DNA of 64,000 bases, from the NCBI GenBank assembly GCA_011523795.1, contig WTFY01000008.1, positions 1 to 64,000 on the forward strand, in the 5' to 3' direction. The DNA is from Gammaproteobacteria bacterium (lineage in GTDB: Bacteria; Pseudomonadota; Gammaproteobacteria; UBA4575). Within the stretch, counting starts at the first letter, position 1, and each line of letters starts with the position of its first letter. Below are positions 1 to 7,333 of the stretch, piece by piece. The translations under genes were made by a program, and so were the position numbers. The notes under the pieces are model-generated. The model saw only the letters and a list, made by a program, of their open reading frames with translations, made no database searches and was not told where the DNA came from.

Positions 1-45
1 TTCGGGAGGCAGGGGTCGGAGGTTCAAATCCTCTCACTCCGACCA
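1..45 (+). tRNA. tRNA-Pro (CGG), 3' part only
   Basis: The window opens inside a tRNA. The first seven bases, TTCGGGA, fit an anticodon loop with anticodon CGG. They are followed by the 3' anticodon stem, a variable loop, a T arm (GGAGG, loop TTCAAAT, CCTCT), an acceptor strand CACTCCG, discriminator A and an encoded CCA ending at 45. The run GGGGTCGGAGGTTC matches the same part of enterobacterial tRNA-Pro. About 31 bases of the 5' half lie outside the window, so stem pairing with the D arm and acceptor could not be checked. Confidence 0.88.
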
Positions 46-61
46 TTAAATCAATCACTTA

Positions 62-114
62 ACGAGTTTCCGAGACTCGTAATTCCCATCGAAACTGGGG
101 AAATCCCCAGTTTC
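62..114 (+). terminator. Two tandem hairpins downstream of tRNA-Pro
   Basis: ACGAGT/ACTCGT (62-67 with 75-80) forms a 6-bp stem. GAAACTGGGG/CCCCAGTTTC (91-100 with 105-114) forms a perfect 10-bp stem with loop AAAT. They probably end or protect the tRNA transcript. No U-run follows, so a classical intrinsic terminator is not certain. Confidence 0.45.
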
Positions 115-128
115 ATCATTACTTCATC

Positions 129-160
129 TTGAAAAATCCAAACCAACGCCCATATATACT
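129..160 (+). promoter_or_regulatory. Putative sigma-70 promoter of the small-gene cassette
   Basis: TTGAAA (129-134) lies 18 bases before TATATA (153-158), which overlaps TATACT (155-160). It sits 27 bases before a strong AGGAGAAAGG ribosome site and the ATG at 187. It is inferred only from similarity to the consensus. Confidence 0.4.
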
Positions 161-186
161 TCTGTATTCAACATCAGGAGAAAGGC

Positions 187-372
187 ATGTACCAACCAGA
201 TCAATTTACAGATGATGAAATCAGTAGTTTAAAGCGTGAATTGTGTGCGCGAACTAGGCAGGTTTACTTTCACACTGCCGAAGATAGGGAAGATGATGAT
301 GTGTTGGAAAAGTTTAAGGATGACATTCTGCGTATTTCTATGACTCTTTTAGCGGTAAGGGAAAGCACTTGA
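187..372 (+). CDS. Hypothetical protein, 61 aa, first gene of AT-rich cassette
   Basis: I do not recognise this protein. It is short, highly charged and acidic (a DREDDD stretch in the middle), probably helical, with no signal peptide or membrane segment. The ATG has an excellent ribosome site (AGGAGAAAGG). Its TGA stop overlaps the TTG start of the next gene (TTGA), so the two are probably translationally coupled and made in similar amounts. The DNA is clearly richer in A and T than the core genes from 2385 onward, which suggests recent acquisition. Confidence 0.6.
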   Translation: MYQPDQFTDDEISSLKRELCARTRQVYFHTAEDREDDDVLEKFKDDILRISMTLLAVREST

Positions 373-764
373 ACTCCTGCTGCCGAAACTGCCACTTTCT
401 GACACGTTTTAACTGGATGGGCAATCCGCCCAGGTATGAACAGATTTCTCTAGAAAGACGGGCTGATATAAGCAGCGCAGGTCCGTGTTGCTATCACGGC
501 GAATGGAATAGTGACAACCCCATACTAGCCAGATCAATAAAAGATTTTACAGAACTCTTGGATCAATCAGAGCGTGACTGTTTTTGGCCACATAAGGAAG
601 GTATGACGCTTGAAGCAGGGGAAAGGCGACAAAAGAAGGAAATTGAAGAGAAACGGGTGAAGAAAACTTACCTCTTAATGAAGATAAGCATAATTTTTTC
701 TGCAGTAGCAGCCTTTAGTGGACTTGTATATATGATTGATTCAATCAGTGCATGGGGTAGTTGA
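369..764 (+). CDS. Hypothetical Cys-rich, tail-anchored protein, 131 aa
   Basis: Unrecognised family. The N-terminus has a CCRNC cluster (residues 4-8) and a second group PCCYHGEW around residues 37-44, a Cys/His pattern that could bind a metal. A charged stretch (QKKEIEEKRVKK, about residues 87-98) precedes one hydrophobic segment (about residues 102-123), so the protein may be anchored in the membrane by its C-terminus with the Cys part in the cytoplasm. It starts at TTG with AAGGG upstream, overlapping the previous stop. An initiator TTG is plausible given the coupling, but no ATG alternative is available nearby. Confidence 0.55.
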   Translation: MNSCCRNCHFLTRFNWMGNPPRYEQISLERRADISSAGPCCYHGEWNSDNPILARSIKDFTELLDQSERDCFWPHKEGMTLEAGERRQKKEIEEKRVKKTYLLMKISIIFSAVAAFSGLVYMIDSISAWGS

Positions 765-798
765 TCTAAGTTTGTGAAACAAAAAAGAAGGAATGTAA

Positions 799-1554
799 AT
801 GCCAAGCAATGACAGCAGCAATCAACCTGAACTAAATAAAGAAAACTTTATTTGTCCGCATTGCGGTGTGGTAGCACAACAAGTTTGGGGGAATGCTAGT
901 AGGTCTACTGATCATACACTCGAATTGGTAGACCGATTTTACCGGGATTACAGAAAAGGTATAGATCAATACAAAGATAAAGCAATTGGCAACTTTCTCA
1001 ATCGCATGAATGAGGTATTGCCTCGTCAATTAATGACTGCTTTCCCAAAAGGCCTTAGCTTCTCATTTTGCGGAAATTGCCATGAGCTAAGTTTTTGGTT
1101 CGGAAATAAATTAATTTTCCCAAAGCAATCTTCTTTCTCAGAACCCAATGAGGACATGAGCGAGGAAATTAAAAATCTTTATAGTGAAGCGGCTGAAATA
1201 TCCTCCTATTCCCCGCGTGCATCTGCTGCATTACTGCGTTTGTGTGTTGAAAAACTATGCGCTGACGACTTGGAAGAAAAAGGAAATTTAAATACCTGCA
1301 TAGGGAATCTAGTACAAAAAGGACTACCTGTACAAATACAACAGGCTTTAGATTACTGTCGCGTCATTGGTAATAATGCTTTACATGCAGGAGAGATAAG
1401 CCTTGAAGAAGATCCTCAAATAGTTCCTCTTCTCTTTAGCCTAGTGAATGACATTGCCCAAGAAATGATAACCAAGCCTAAGCATTTAAAGGAAAAGTAT
1501 GATGCCTTACCTGCGGGTTACATAAAGCAAATCGAAAAAAGAGATGACAATTAA
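799..1554 (+). CDS. DUF4145 domain protein with split zinc ribbon, 251 aa
   Basis: The N-terminal half has two Cys pairs, CPHC (residues 19-22) and CGNC (about residues 91-94), which could form one zinc ribbon split by about 70 residues. The C-terminal half (about residues 125-225) reads like DUF4145: EIKNLYSEAAEISSYSPRAS followed by an ALLRLCVEKLC helix and a VIGNNALHAGEI motif. In known families DUF4145 occurs alone or fused to restriction or nuclease domains; its molecular role is not established. The start is ATG with AAGGA upstream. A link to phage or plasmid defence is inference from family habit and location beside a tRNA. Confidence 0.75.
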   Translation: MPSNDSSNQPELNKENFICPHCGVVAQQVWGNASRSTDHTLELVDRFYRDYRKGIDQYKDKAIGNFLNRMNEVLPRQLMTAFPKGLSFSFCGNCHELSFWFGNKLIFPKQSSFSEPNEDMSEEIKNLYSEAAEISSYSPRASAALLRLCVEKLCADDLEEKGNLNTCIGNLVQKGLPVQIQQALDYCRVIGNNALHAGEISLEEDPQIVPLLFSLVNDIAQEMITKPKHLKEKYDALPAGYIKQIEKRDDN

Positions 1555-1665
1555 GTTTAAGCTAGAGCACTTAATGTAACTAACGCTTTGGGAATTATAT
1601 CTAATAGTTCCTAAGGTAAACTTTTATGTCACAACAAAAACAAATACTTAAGAGGAATAACAATT

Positions 1666-1968
1666 ATGAAGATATTGTTTACTAATGATTTCTACAAATT
1701 GGAACGATCTCTTGCAGTGTTTATGGCTGAAGTTAAAGGGTATGAAGTGATAAAAACCTTTTCCAAAAAAAATCTGCCAGATGTAGTGTGTATAGGTCTT
1801 AAAGAATCAGCATTTCGCAAACGTTATTCAAGTGAAAAGATTAAAAATAATGAACCGACTTCAAAAGAAAGGAAGACACTAGAAGCCATTGAGAATGGAG
1901 CAAATATAAAGATTTTGAGAGGAGTGGAAGAATTTGTGCGTTTTATCGTTTTAGATGAGTTTCCTTAG
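1666..1968 (+). CDS. Hypothetical protein, 100 aa
   Basis: I do not recognise this gene. It starts at ATG with GAGGA nine bases upstream and encodes a basic soluble protein without signal peptide or membrane segment. The pattern of short hydrophobic strands (KILFTNDF, DVVCIGL, IKILRGVEEFVRFIVL) suggests a small alpha/beta fold. It shares the AT-rich composition of the three genes before it and is the last gene of that cassette. A short imperfect stem (GCAAG/CTTGC, 1969-1988) follows the stop. Confidence 0.5.
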   Translation: MKILFTNDFYKLERSLAVFMAEVKGYEVIKTFSKKNLPDVVCIGLKESAFRKRYSSEKIKNNEPTSKERKTLEAIENGANIKILRGVEEFVRFIVLDEFP

Positions 1969-2384
1969 CAAGGCAAAGTCGTCTTGCAATTCACTTTTTC
2001 GTCTTCTTAATCGGTCCTGCTGCATCAGCCCCCACAATCATCTGGCACCTGAACTTCCGTTCCATTCGATAGCATGAAAACGACCGCTCGCTAACTTAAG
2101 AGTACGAACGTTCACACCTGCAACATGAGCAAGTTCAGCAGCACAGCAATGAGCTTCGGCTCAGGGTAAAAAAGCAACGTTAAGGAAGTGTGAAACCTTG
2201 ACTACACTTTCATGAGCCAGGCTGCTTCGACATCGGGCATCAAAGCAGGGTTGCCGACGGACTGGATGCTCGAAGAGTTTTCATCGAAAGTGCATCAGGC
2301 ACTCTGGAAAGATGCGATGAGCAGAGCCCCCTTTATGCAGAGGGAAAAACCCGCCCATCGCGGGCAGCTGATGCTGCCCGCGGA
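1969..2384. other. Intergenic stretch with a possible gene remnant
   Basis: 416 bases without a convincing gene lie between the AT-rich cassette and the pntB terminator. On the minus strand 2157-2038 reads open and ends at a stop with the segment AAELAHVAGVNVRTLKLASG, which has helix-turn-helix-like spacing. No start or upstream continuation is visible, so it may be the tail of a decayed gene. A plus-strand frame from 2212 runs through the pntB terminator hairpin and lacks a ribosome site. No repeat of the tRNA 3' end (an attR) was found here by eye. Confidence 0.4.
2345..2382 (-). terminator. Rho-independent terminator of pntAB
   Basis: Read on the minus strand, a perfect stem CGCGGGCAGC/GCTGCCCGCG with a 4-base loop (2382-2359) begins 3 bases beyond the pntB stop. 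It is followed by ATGGGCGGG and a short U-run (TTTTT, 2349-2345). Confidence 0.75.
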
Positions 2385-3773
2385 TCAATCCAGATGTTGC
2401 AATACCGCACTCATGCTGTCCTTGGCATCCCCGAACAGCATTTCCGTGTTGTCATGAAAGAACAGGGGATTGTCTACCCCGGCATACCCCGATGCCATGC
2501 TGCGTTTGAGCACGATACAGGACTTGGCTTTCCATACCTCGAGTACAGGCATGCCTGCAATGGGGCTGTTCGGGTCCGTTTGGGCACTGGGGTTGACGAT
2601 GTCGTTCGCTCCGATTATCAGGGAGACGTCGGTATCCGGGAAGTCCTCATTCAGTTCGTCCATCTCCAGGACGATGTCATACGGGACCTTGGCTTCCGCC
2701 AGCAACACGTTCATGTGGCCCGGCAGGCGCCCTGCGACAGGGTGAATGCCGAATCGTACGTTGACACCCTTTGACCGCAGTTTCTTGGTAATTTCGCTGA
2801 CAATTCCCTGGGCCTGCGCAACAGCCATGCCGTATCCAGGTACGATGATGACCTCGCTGGCATCCTTGAGCAGTCCCGCAACTTCCTCTGCATTCGTGGA
2901 AGTCACTTCACCTTGCTCGGAGTCGACAGCCGTTCCACCCGAGGTACCAAACCCGCCCAGGATGACGCTCACAAATCTGCGGTTCATGGCTCGGCACATG
3001 ATGTAACTCAGGATGGCACCGCTTGATCCTACCAGGGATCCCACGACGATCAGCGCGATGTTACCCAGCATGAAGCCGGTGGCCGCAGCCGCCCAGCCCG
3101 AGTAACTGTTCAGCATGGAGACGACGACCGGCATGTCGGCGCCCCCAATGGCCATGATGAGATGAATGCCGATGACGAATGCAATAAGGGTCATGGCCAG
3201 CAGCGGGTAGAGGCCGGATGCATGTGAACCAGCGCTCAGGAAGACATACCCGAGGTAGATGCAGGCCAGAATGGCGATCAGGTTCAGCCAATGCCTGGCG
3301 GGCAGCATCAGGGGTTTGCCGCTGATGATGCCCCTGAGCTTTCCAAAGGCAATCACCGAACCGGTGAAGGTAATTGCGCCGATGAAGACACCCACGTAGA
3401 CCTCGACTTCATGGATGGTTTTTTCGGCCCCTTCTAAATGGAGGCTTGGGTCGAGGTAACTCGATACACCCACCAGCACGGCAGCCAGACCGACGAAGCT
3501 GTGCAGGATGGCAACCAGTTCAGGCATTTGTGTCATCTCGACACGGGATGCGATGAATGCGCCAATCAGGCCGCCGATGATCATGGCAGGAAACAGTTTC
3601 TCAAACCCTCCTACCTGCCCACTGAGTATGGTAGCGATGATCGCGATCGCCATGCCCAGCATGCCGCACAGGTTGCCGCGACGTGCAGACTCCTGATGGC
3701 TCAGTCCGTTCAGACTCAGAATAAAGAGAGCGCCCGCTGCAAGGTAGGACGCTGTCAGTAATTGTGGATTCAT
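2385..3773 (-). CDS. pntB: NAD(P) transhydrogenase subunit beta
   Basis: This is the beta subunit of the proton-translocating transhydrogenase, which uses the proton motive force to move hydride from NADH to NADP+ in the inner membrane. At 462 aa it matches the family. About nine membrane segments fill residues 1-260, with the conserved channel histidine in AILHSFVG (near residue 90). The C-terminal NADP-binding domain (from about residue 290) has the [10 protein letters not shown] and [18 protein letters not shown] motifs and ends with [11 protein letters not shown]. It follows pntA by 14 bases in one operon and is closed by a strong terminator. Confidence 0.97.
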
Positions 3774-3787
3774 GCGTGCGTTCTCCC

Positions 3788-5353
3788 TTATTCTTCCTTA
3801 CGAAACATCTGCAACATTCGTTGCGTGACGAAAAACCCGCCACCGATATTAATCGAGGCAATGAGCACGGAAATGGTTGCCAGCACCACAATCAAGACAC
3901 TGCTGCTGCCAATTTGCAGCAGTGCACCGATGATAATCACGCTGCTGATCGCGTTGGTCACGCTCATGAGGGGAGTATGCAGTGCAGGAGTCACATTCCA
4001 GACTACCCAGTAACCGATGAAGCAGGACAGAACGAAAACGGTAAAGTGCTGCATGAATTCGGTCGGGGCATACTGTCCCAGTCCCAACAGGGCGAGTGCA
4101 GCCACAAGCAGCGTGACGGCAAACTTGACCCCGCTTTTCTTCTTTTTTGGTGGTTCGGCAACAGGCGCCTGCGCAGCTGCCTGTGCAGGAGGAGCCGCAG
4201 TGACTGAAATGGGCGGCGGCGGCCAGGTGATCTCACCGTTGTGAATGACCGTGGTGCCCCGAATGACATCGTCCTCCATGTCGACCGTCAGGTTGCCGTC
4301 TTTTTCCGGTGTCATGTCTGTCAGCAGGTGACACAGGTTGGAGCCGTATAGCTGGCTGGACTGCGTAGGCAGGCGGCTGGGTAAATCCATATAGCCGATC
4401 AGTGTGACACCATGCTTGACGACGACCTCGCCCGGGCTGGTCAGTTCACAGTTGCCTCCCTGTTCAGCAGCCAGGTCGACCACGACACTGCCTTCCTTCA
4501 TGAGTTCGACCATGTCAGCCAGGATCAGTTTGGGTGCAGGCTTGCCAGGGATCAAAGCGGTGGTGATGATGATATCGACTTCTTTCGCCTGCTCCCTGAA
4601 CAGGGTCATCTCCGCCTCGATGAACTCCTTGCTCATGACCTTGGCATAACCGCCCGCGGTACTGCCGTCTTCCTCTTCCTCGAAATCAAGTTCCAGGAAC
4701 TGCGCACCCATGCTTTCAACCTGCTGTTTTACTTCCGGGCGTGTATCGAATGCGCGCACGATGGCACCAAGTCCGCTTCCGGTGCCAATCGCTGCAAGTC
4801 CAGCAACGCCGGCGCCGATCACCATAATCTTTGCCGGAGGCACCTTTCCCGCAGCGGTGATCTGTCCGGTAAAAAACCTGCCGAAATGATTGGCAGCTTC
4901 AATCACTGCGCGGTAACCCGCGATATTCGCCATGGATGACAGGGCATCCAGTTTTTGTGCGCGTGAAATTCTTGGGACGGAATCCATGGCCAGCACCGTG
5001 CCCTTGCTGGTTTTCAACCTGTTCATCAGGTCTTCGTTCTGGGCGGGCCAGATGAAGCTGACCAGGGTGCAGCCTTCATGCAGCAGGTCCGACTCATGCA
5101 TGCCCAGGTCCGGGTGTTCCTCAGGGGCCCGCACCTTGAGCACGATGTCGGAATCGGCCCAGAGTTGCTTGGTATCCGTGACTACGGTTACTCCTGCCTC
5201 CCGGTAGGCCTCATCGCTGAATTTTGCACGGGTGCCTGCGCCCGACTCGATGGTGCACTCGTAGCCCAGTTTTTGCATGCGGGCAGCAGTGTCTGGCGTC
5301 AGGGCCACGCGGCATTCGTTTTGATGGATTTCTCTTGGGACTCCAATCTTCAT
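3788..5353 (-). CDS. pntA: NAD(P) transhydrogenase subunit alpha
   Basis: This is the NAD(H)-binding alpha subunit and partner of PntB. The start is placed at the ATG of MKIGVPREI, which has AAGGAAAT nine bases upstream; 18 more residues are open upstream but do not resemble the family. The 521-aa protein has the alanine-dehydrogenase-like domain I (residues 1 to about 380, [13 protein letters not shown] nucleotide loop and [12 protein letters not shown]). A Pro/Ala/Lys linker (about residues 395-430) and a membrane part of about four segments follow. It is thus the one-chain, E. coli-type alpha subunit and not the split A1/A2 form of alphaproteobacteria. Confidence 0.96.
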
Positions 5354-5743
5354 GCTTGAAATTTCCTTGGATAAACGTGGGTTAGGTTTGCGGATTCGTT
5401 TCTGCACAGGGTTCTTTGGATCACTGCACGTACGTACCCTGCGCGGTCAAGTGGTAAATGTCAGCTATTGAATCCAGTAATTTATACTTTCGAAACGGTT
5501 GTTTACACTGGGCGGCTATACTATATAATTATTGGCGAAACGGCCACAGGAAAATTCCTCCCTGAGAGGAAAACGTTACAGGTTTATAATTCGGCAAGCC
5601 TTGAGTCTGAATCATCTGACGATCAAACCATCTGTGGCGTTCCTGCAAGTTTACATCCCTTATTTTGGTGTCCCTGGGTGCGAATGCAGATGAGCGCATG
5701 TGCCTGACCGGACTTTTTCGGCCGGAATCCACGGGGAAGGACA
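5354..5743. other. Divergent pntA/ppx intergenic region
   Basis: 390 bases hold the pntA leader on the left and a plus-strand promoter at 5502-5529. A leader of about 208 bases then runs up to ppx. The leader contains an imperfect stem near the end (CCGGAC...GGCCGG around 5708-5725) but I recognise no known riboswitch or small RNA. A plus-strand frame from 5468 is open for 79 codons but overlaps the promoter and has no ribosome site. Confidence 0.5.
5502..5529 (+). promoter_or_regulatory. Putative sigma-70 promoter of ppx
   Basis: TTTACA (5502-5507) is separated by 16 bases from a perfect TATAAT (5524-5529), in an AT-rich patch within GC-richer sequence. Transcription would start near 5536. 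Confidence 0.6.
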
Positions 5744-7333
5744 TTGCCCGTTGTCGACTATGTAGACAGTAACATGCAAGGCGTTTCTCCCCAACCTGCT
5801 ATTTACCCGGAAAAATCTTCTCCGGAAACTCCTTCTGTAATTGCCGCGGTGGACCTGGGTTCAAACAGTTTTCACATGGTGGTTGCGCACGACCAGCATG
5901 GACAACTGAAAATCATTGACAGGATTCGCGAGATGGTTCGCCTGGGAGCCGGACTTGATGATTCCGGCAGGATTTGCGAGGAAGCGCAGGAGCGGGCCAT
6001 CAAGTGTCTGCAGCGATTCGGTCAGCGCATGCAGGAAATGCATGCCCATTCAGTGCGTGTAGTCGGTACCAACACGTTTCGTCATGCCAAGAACAACAGT
6101 GGTTTCGTACAGCGTGCGGAAGAGGCACTTGGACACCCTATCCAGGTGATTTCGGGCGTAGAGGAAGCGCGCCTGGTATATCACGGGACGACCCATTCGA
6201 TCACCGGTCCGCATGGAAAGTGGCTTGTGGTTGATATTGGCGGTGGCAGTACCGAGGTCATCATCGGAGAACAGAGGGAGCCAATCCTGATGGAAAGTGT
6301 ACAGATGGGTTGCGTCGGCATGAGCCAGAGGTTTTTTGAACAGGGTGGCCTGGAGAAAAAACGATTCAAGAATGCCCTGGTGGAGGCCAAGCTTCAGCTG
6401 CAGCCGATCATCGCTTCAGTAAAGAAGCTTGGCTGGAACTATGTGGTGGGTACTGCGGGGACGATTCGTACCATTGACCAGTTGATGCGTGAACTCGGAC
6501 TCAGTGACCGCGGCATCACGTACGGGGGCATTCAGGCCCTGATTGCCGAGTTGAAGGCAGCCGGGCAGATGGATAATGTCCAGTTCAATTCCCTGGCGGC
6601 TGAACGAAAACCCGTCTTTGCAGGAGGACTGGTGGTGCTCAAGGCGATCTTTTCCGAACTCGGAATCGGTGAAATGATGACTTCCGAGGGAGGGTTGCGG
6701 GAAGGATTGCTGCTGGACCTCGCCGGGCGTATTCATCACCGGGATACACGCGACCGGACCGTATTTTCACTGATGCGCCGATACCATGTCGATTTCAAGC
6801 ATGCCGCGAGAATTAAAACCACTGCACTGCACGTGCTGGACCAGGTGTCGGGGATACTGGAAATTGACCGGGACCTCGCCTATCCCTTCCTGATCTGGGC
6901 TGCAGACCTGCACGAAATCGGCCTGGATATCTCGCACTCACGCTATCACCGTCATGGCGCCTATGTACTGGACCATGGTGACCTGCTTGGATTTTCATGG
7001 AACGAGCAACGCCTGCTCGCCTGCCTCGTGGGGAATCACCGCCGCAAGATCAATATGGAGATGGTGGAGCAGTTGCCGAGTCAGTGGCAGGCGCAGGCCG
7101 TATACATGATTGTTATATTGCGGCTGGCAGCATTGCTTAATCGAGACAGGGTTCCGAAAAGGATTCCCCCTGTGAGAGTTACCCGCCATGCCCGGCACAT
7201 CAAGATTGCACTGGACCGCAAATGGCTCAAACGGCATCCCTTGACGGCTGCAGAACTTGAGATGGAAGAAAGCTACCTGAAAACCCTGAACATAGAGGTG
7301 AGAATCGGCGGTCTTGAGCAGACTGCACGGTAA
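5744..7333 (+). CDS. ppx: Exopolyphosphatase (Ppx/GppA family)
   Basis: This enzyme releases phosphate from the ends of long polyphosphate chains; related GppA enzymes hydrolyse pppGpp. The ASKHA-fold N-terminal part starts with AAVDLGSNSFHMVVA (about residues 34-48) and has the second phosphate loop VVDIGGGSTEVIIGE. The C-terminal HD-like half (about residues 320-520) matches long proteobacterial Ppx (529 aa against about 513). The longest frame starts at TTG (5744) behind GGGGAAGG; an ATG at 5774 lacks a ribosome site. It converges on ppk, so synthesis and breakdown genes face each other 42 bases apart. Confidence 0.93.
   Translation: MPVVDYVDSNMQGVSPQPAIYPEKSSPETPSVIAAVDLGSNSFHMVVAHDQHGQLKIIDRIREMVRLGAGLDDSGRICEEAQERAIKCLQRFGQRMQEMHAHSVRVVGTNTFRHAKNNSGFVQRAEEALGHPIQVISGVEEARLVYHGTTHSITGPHGKWLVVDIGGGSTEVIIGEQREPILMESVQMGCVGMSQRFFEQGGLEKKRFKNALVEAKLQLQPIIASVKKLGWNYVVGTAGTIRTIDQLMRELGLSDRGITYGGIQALIAELKAAGQMDNVQFNSLAAERKPVFAGGLVVLKAIFSELGIGEMMTSEGGLREGLLLDLAGRIHHRDTRDRTVFSLMRRYHVDFKHAARIKTTALHVLDQVSGILEIDRDLAYPFLIWAADLHEIGLDISHSRYHRHGAYVLDHGDLLGFSWNEQRLLACLVGNHRRKINMEMVEQLPSQWQAQAVYMIVILRLAALLNRDRVPKRIPPVRVTRHARHIKIALDRKWLKRHPLTAAELEMEESYLKTLNIEVRIGGLEQTAR

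Follow-up and report, generated by a model that had tools for sequence, protein, structure and literature searches.

PD-T7-4 and RAZR are the described systems closest to the locus analysed here. PD-T7-4 is a single-gene system, and the trigger of RAZR is a phage ring or portal protein. The motif of HEPN proteins is usually quoted as R-x4-6-H. PMC9519451 describes PD-T7-4 as a validated anti-phage system linked to mobile elements. According to PMC3710099, DUF4145 belongs to the HEPN superfamily, and fusions to zinc ribbons are among those recorded for its branch. The branch is a broad one that phage defence does not define. A literature search for the structure entry 9Y9C and for RAZR found no paper on either.

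The DNA studied (the window) covers positions 1-64,000 of contig C9 (214,103 bases), from a genome of 22 contigs and 2.07 Mb that is 97% complete. An AT-rich insert near its left end carries four genes, and the product of the third (799-1554) is, by its profile matches, a member of the PD-T7-4/RAZR family. It matches the PADLOC profile for PD-T7-4 (PDLC04109) with E 6.6e-69, best over residues 84-250 of 251, but is longer than the 211 positions of that profile. It also matches phrog_1305 (E 1e-27) and DUF4145 (PF13643, E 1.2e-12, above the Pfam cut-off). The only clear sequence match in the PDB is 9y9c (E 3.5e-45), a DUF4145 protein of 219 residues in 24 chains; across its printed parts, where 184 residues align, approximately 46% are identical. 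Foldseek (E 8.4e-7) gives the title of 9Y9C, which names a RAZR:GP77 complex and describes the models as AlphaFold predictions fitted into cryo-EM density. By its molecule name, the DUF4145 chain is presumably RAZR rather than GP77.

Like RAZR, the window protein has a putative zinc-knuckle domain with two CxxC pairs (C19/C22 and C91/C94) and a C-terminal HEPN-type DUF4145 domain with R188, N192 and H196. The residues C91, C94, R188, G191, N192 and H196 are invariant in all 69 aligned proteins, and C19 and C22 are both kept in 58 of them. The alignment consists of the window protein and 68 of 76 distinct proteins from 83 loci, eight having been removed by hand as near-duplicates or because of doubtful starts. 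The R188-x7-H196 spacing exceeds R-x4-6-H. The two proteins differ in the spacer between the knuckles, which is 68 residues in the window protein and 29 in 9y9c, and the trigger may therefore differ. The idea that the long spacer is unique was rejected because it varies between 12 and 86 residues in the family and exceeds 50 in 21 of the 69 proteins, the window protein included, with lengths being unsure in the 11 rows where the first CxxC pair is incomplete.

The AlphaFold model of the protein has a pLDDT of 84 and a helical C-terminal domain. HEPN appears in the titles of nine of the best 30 VIA-align rows, and these 30 include HepT, Csm6, AbiA, AbiV and HepS, which we take to be HEPN proteins. 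The best row has a Z-score of 12.7 (3.1 Å over 112 residues), and for helical bundles a Z-score below about 13 can reflect a common arrangement.

Composition and organisation of the insert

The G+C content is 38.2% for positions 46-1968 compared with 56.0% for 2385-64000. The lowest value is 52.3% among 1,192 segments, each 1,923 bases long and taken every 50 bases from about position 2,500 on, and three further stretches of the same genome have 55-57%. By reading frame, the G+C content is 39.8% in orfA, 43.2% in orfB, 39.0% in the DUF4145 gene and 33.0% in orfD. The insert is foreign DNA.

Features of the left part of the window are collected in Table 1. The overlap of orfA and orfB consists of TTGA, with the TTG start of orfB at 369 and the TGA stop of orfA at 370-372, and 34 bases separate the stop of orfB from the start of the DUF4145 gene. 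Sequences resembling ribosome-binding sites precede orfA and the DUF4145 gene (read by eye). Pattern scans gave five terminator-like hairpins in 1-2500 against 2.4 (sd 1.5) in shuffled sequences, and two promoter-like sites against 5.1 in shuffles, neither of them 5' of orfA.

Table 1. Coordinates of features at the left end of the window
Feature	Position	Strand	Evidence
3' 45 bases of tRNA-Pro(CGG), anticodon loop to CCA	1-45	+	Identity to C18:1-45(-)
Left end of insert; resembles sequence after tRNA-Pro in G001 and G003	46-186		Alignment
orfA, 61 aa, orphan	187-372	+	ORF list
orfB, 131 aa, TTG start, orphan	369-764	+	ORF list
DUF4145 protein of the PD-T7-4/RAZR family, 251 aa	799-1554	+	PADLOC, Pfam, PDB 9y9c, alignment
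Terminator-like hairpin between DUF4145 gene and orfD	1585-1617	+	Pattern scan
orfD, 100 aa, orphan, 33% G+C	1666-1968	+	ORF list
Terminator-like hairpin 3' of orfD	1968-1987	+	Pattern scan
Sequence common with insert-free congeners resumes	2141-2216		Local alignment to tRNA-pntB gaps of G002 and G004
pntB, conserved chromosomal flank	2385-3773	-	Pfam PNTB; 89-94% identity in four congeners

The small neighbours of the DUF4145 gene are without credible relatives in Pfam, PADLOC, PHROGs and NCBIfam, and the same searches gave neither an MNT nucleotidyltransferase nor any other antitoxin family for orfA, orfB or orfD. None of the three has a match in plasmids, and orfB and orfD have none in phages or IMG/VR. 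Among 369 genomes of the class and 170 of the phylum, orfD was found in its own genome only. No match to orfB was found in the 170 phylum genomes, and weak matches (E 0.002-0.009) in seven of 368 other class genomes were discounted because chance alone would give about four at this cut-off and three of the seven cover the hydrophobic stretch only. This stretch is C-terminal, and the N-terminus of orfB is Cys-rich (read from the sequence). A comparison with 20,173 reading frames of 193 loci, PD-T7-4-like loci included, found no relatives of orfA, orfB or orfD near genes of the family, and weak scores occurred only in loci that the search with orfB had retrieved. The sequence pattern of orfD suggested a BRCT-like or Rossmann-like fold, an idea that was dropped since neither the PDB nor the family matches rose above chance. 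The single-sequence AlphaFold model of orfD has a pLDDT of 45, too low for use.

The tRNA-Pro site in related genomes

Contig C18 of the same genome has a complete tRNA-Pro(CGG) at its tip, and bases 1-45 of the window are identical to the final 45 bases of this tRNA; neither ARAGORN nor Rfam finds a tRNA in the window itself. A polyprenyl synthetase gene (Pfam E 4e-81), here labelled ispB, is located 5' of the tRNA-Pro on C18, and ispB likewise precedes tRNA-Pro in each of the four congeners and in both other family members examined. In three of these congeners (G002, G003 and G004) pntB and tRNA-Pro are on one contig, all without the insert, and the distance between them is approximately 0.5, 3.2 and 0.5 kb, respectively, compared with 2.3 kb here. 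Neither of the two outcomes that an earlier reading of the sequence had named as refuting was observed: the DUF4145 gene is present in one of 55 genomes, its own, and in none of the 54 relatives, the four congeners among them, and the base composition of the insert differs from that of the remaining window and of the three further stretches.

The gap between tRNA-Pro and pntB is filled in different ways. G002 and G004 have in common a gene of 68-73 amino acids (L032, L035), which is absent from the window and, when searched with a 27-base pattern allowing up to three mismatches, from the whole genome under study. G003 has an outer-membrane efflux gene and an HlyD-like gene, and relatives of these two adjoin pntB in G001 (read from translations). 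At this site G001 has other cargo (L093 5280-6890, L033 2716-3195), namely a PIN-domain gene and genes of unknown kind, together with a worn copy of the 45-base tRNA end. These gene contents indicate that the tRNA-Pro/pntB interval is a variable spot and a cargo hot spot in the genus. At the right side of the insert, the local alignment to the G002 and G004 gaps was not equalled in any of 100 shuffles. The similarity to G002 and G004 resumes at 2141-2162, which places the right edge of the insert before this stretch, and by alignment the insert, or replacement, spans 46 to about 2140. The segment 1969-2140, between orfD and the resumed shared sequence, has no match to G002 or G004 and is possibly a gene remnant.

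No integrase was found among the four cassette genes (Pfam, PADLOC, PHROGs, NCBIfam), a difference from PD-T7-4, but the contig starts at the tRNA piece. A repeat of the tRNA end is not present in 46-6000, where the best 25-mer has 16 of 25 identical bases (14-17 in 100 shuffles) and the best 45-mer 24 of 45 (22-26 in shuffles). The sequence-only reading had described an AT-rich cassette directly downstream of a tRNA-Pro 3' end, with stop/start coupling of the first two genes, only a DUF4145 domain that was familiar, and neither an integrase nor a repeat of the tRNA end; the results given above agree with it on all these points.

Several genomes have an extra tRNA-Pro match that begins at the anticodon loop; three of them (G022, G035 and G044) were chosen for this reason for a closer look at the tRNA end, and G001 was added. 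In G022 the final 45 bases of the tRNA are repeated without mismatch 4,931 bases downstream, with identity extending three bases further up and four further down. In G035 an exact 45-base copy is found on another contig, with no extra identical base on either side. Upstream of the copies, similarity to the tRNA drops to what unrelated sequence would give (11/32 in G022 and 8/32 in G035). Integrases were sought next to these two copies, and a tyrosine integrase with an arm-binding domain adjoins both (PF00589 with E 3e-34 in G022 and 4e-14 in G035; PF13356). The copy in G044 has 35 of 45 bases, and the worn copy in G001 has 36 of 45 (next best 22), with the PIN-domain gene beyond it. Because exact copies are located beside tyrosine integrases in G022 and G035, the 45-base end of tRNA-Pro(CGG) is a real recombination core in the class. 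No exact match to it was found in IMG/VR. The element in G022 (contig C25, L200 1349-6356) also encodes an FAD-binding oxidase and has a hydrolase-like gene, with a fragment of an integrase adjoining the tRNA, and the element in G035 (its contig C14) corresponds to L201 2198-3762.

Seven pairs of contig tips in this assembly have exactly 55 bases in common, as expected for one k-mer size, and the tips of C9 and C18 have exactly 45, which is also how long the exact repeat in G035 is (pairs consisting only of N were left out). Since C9 and C18 share 45 bases and not the usual 55, bases 1-45 are probably a second copy of the core, with more DNA present between the tRNA on C18 and C9 in at least part of the sampled population and with the cassette as an older islet beside it. 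The alternative is a coverage gap within a single tRNA-Pro. In the same assembly, the first and last 46 bases of the 36 kb contig C14 are identical. This contig may be circular, may be an element with terminal repeats, or may have a coding repeat.

Proposed function of the islet and alternative explanations

The region from 46 to about 2140 is best explained, with a probability of roughly 0.75, as an acquired islet whose functional component is, most likely, the DUF4145 gene, encoding an abortive-infection RNase of the RAZR/PD-T7-4 type. Points against this reading are the R188-x7-H196 spacing, the Z-score near the level of common helical arrangements, the predicted nature of the 9y9c models, the long branch of the window protein, the different spacer length and the absence of a promoter-like site before orfA. 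Acquired defence cargo is supported because syntenic congeners are without the insert, the tRNA end is used by integrases in other genomes of the class and the protein belongs to the PD-T7-4/RAZR family. The sequence-only reading had proposed a small mobile cargo of defence or toxin type. This stands as regards acquired DNA at a tRNA hot spot with a defence gene, but no complete mobile element is evident, with neither an integrase among the four genes nor a repeat at the right end.

The RNase activity, the trigger and the outcome in this organism are put forward by analogy with relatives. The DUF4145 protein would be produced and kept idle in a latent form. During infection a phage protein, which is GP77 for the solved relative, would dock on the zinc-knuckle region and gather many copies of the DUF4145 protein, whereby the HEPN domains might become active. 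The active domains would cleave RNA so that translation halts, and the infected cell would die or stall ahead of phage release.

An alternative is that the four genes work together as a single operon-like defence system, with the DUF4145 protein as effector and with orfA/orfB or orfD as its modulators or membrane anchors. They are on the same strand with low G+C content throughout, and the TTGA coupling and the short gap before the DUF4145 gene would suit such a system. Set against this, orfA, orfB and orfD are without relatives at the 193 loci apart from the weak ones retrieved with orfB, PD-T7-4 needs only one gene, and a terminator-like hairpin sets orfD apart; one system is therefore unlikely. 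Because the DUF4145 gene alone has relatives, the four-gene unit suggested earlier is unsupported. A more specific version, in which orfB, together with orfA and perhaps orfD, senses for the RNase or anchors it and the long helical spacer answers to another trigger in a multi-gene immunity of RAZR type, is improbable. The DUF4145 protein is very unlikely to be the toxin of a HEPN toxin-antitoxin pair with one small neighbour as antitoxin and phage defence as a secondary role: HEPN toxins have the same fold, as the structure model would have it, and small coupled genes are located upstream, but HEPN/MNT pairs have an MNT partner and neither this nor another antitoxin family is seen in the three neighbours, whose relatives are absent near relatives of the DUF4145 gene, and the match to PD-T7-4 and 9y9c is strong.

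A further improbable reading sees in the islet a decaying remnant that no longer has a function. The four genes include no integrase, the right end has no repeat, and a relative in Limisphaerales (L028 8001-8750), which is 46% identical over positions 4-249 of the query, is interrupted by a stop codon. The DUF4145 reading frame in the window is nevertheless intact with its motif residues conserved, and ribosome-binding-like sequences are found before orfA and this gene. Read as a RAZR/PD-T7-4-type RNase, the DUF4145 protein adds a member to a newly described family of phage-sensing RNases, and the spacer of this member is long in what is probably its sensor region.

Occurrence of the family and a second copy

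The family is seldom carried in this lineage (5 of 368 other class genomes). The DUF4145 protein has matches in 6 of 369 class genomes with its own included, and the other five comprise two clear matches (G373, with 45% identity, and G120), two with an internal stop codon and a weak one. A profile search at E 1e-10 gave matches in three of the 368. The collections searched are mostly mobile DNA, so the following counts do not amount to a census: of 202 candidate stretches from IMG/VR, 154 encode relatives (80 kept), nine phage records and 25 plasmid records also have them, and a scan of genome contigs with a single sequence gave two loci. In one of the nine phage records, that of a filamentous phage of Vibrio (L109 9123-9788), the gene was labelled PD-T7-4 by its depositors, and it adjoins a DUF2726 gene. 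A search with PF00589, covering 50 records out of 84 loci of relatives, found an integrase match in 26 of 48 virus records, in 24 of them above the cut-off. It superseded a simple search for integrase motifs near relatives (4 of 76 loci), which was too crude.

A second copy of the DUF4145 gene is present in the same genome on contig C18, and its product is 40% identical to the window protein. It faces an integrase remnant approximately 20 bases away, and a tRNA-Met is located at about 0.5 kb. The naming of the remnant comes from tblastn to annotated plasmid integrases; Pfam gave nothing for it at E 0.1. The two copies fall on different branches of a 76-row tree, in which the window protein has a long branch and an unsure position. 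Two separate acquisitions account for the copies better than a recent duplication would. A single genome with two such diverged copies, located near two tRNA genes, is a usable system for studying whether phage triggers are divided between sensors of this kind. The second islet, near tRNA-Met, corresponds to L038 7230-11244 (C18:293229-297243) and also has a HEPN-like gene (E 0.001, below the cut-off), and an NYN gene near the C18 copy matches the candidate defence profile HEC-09.
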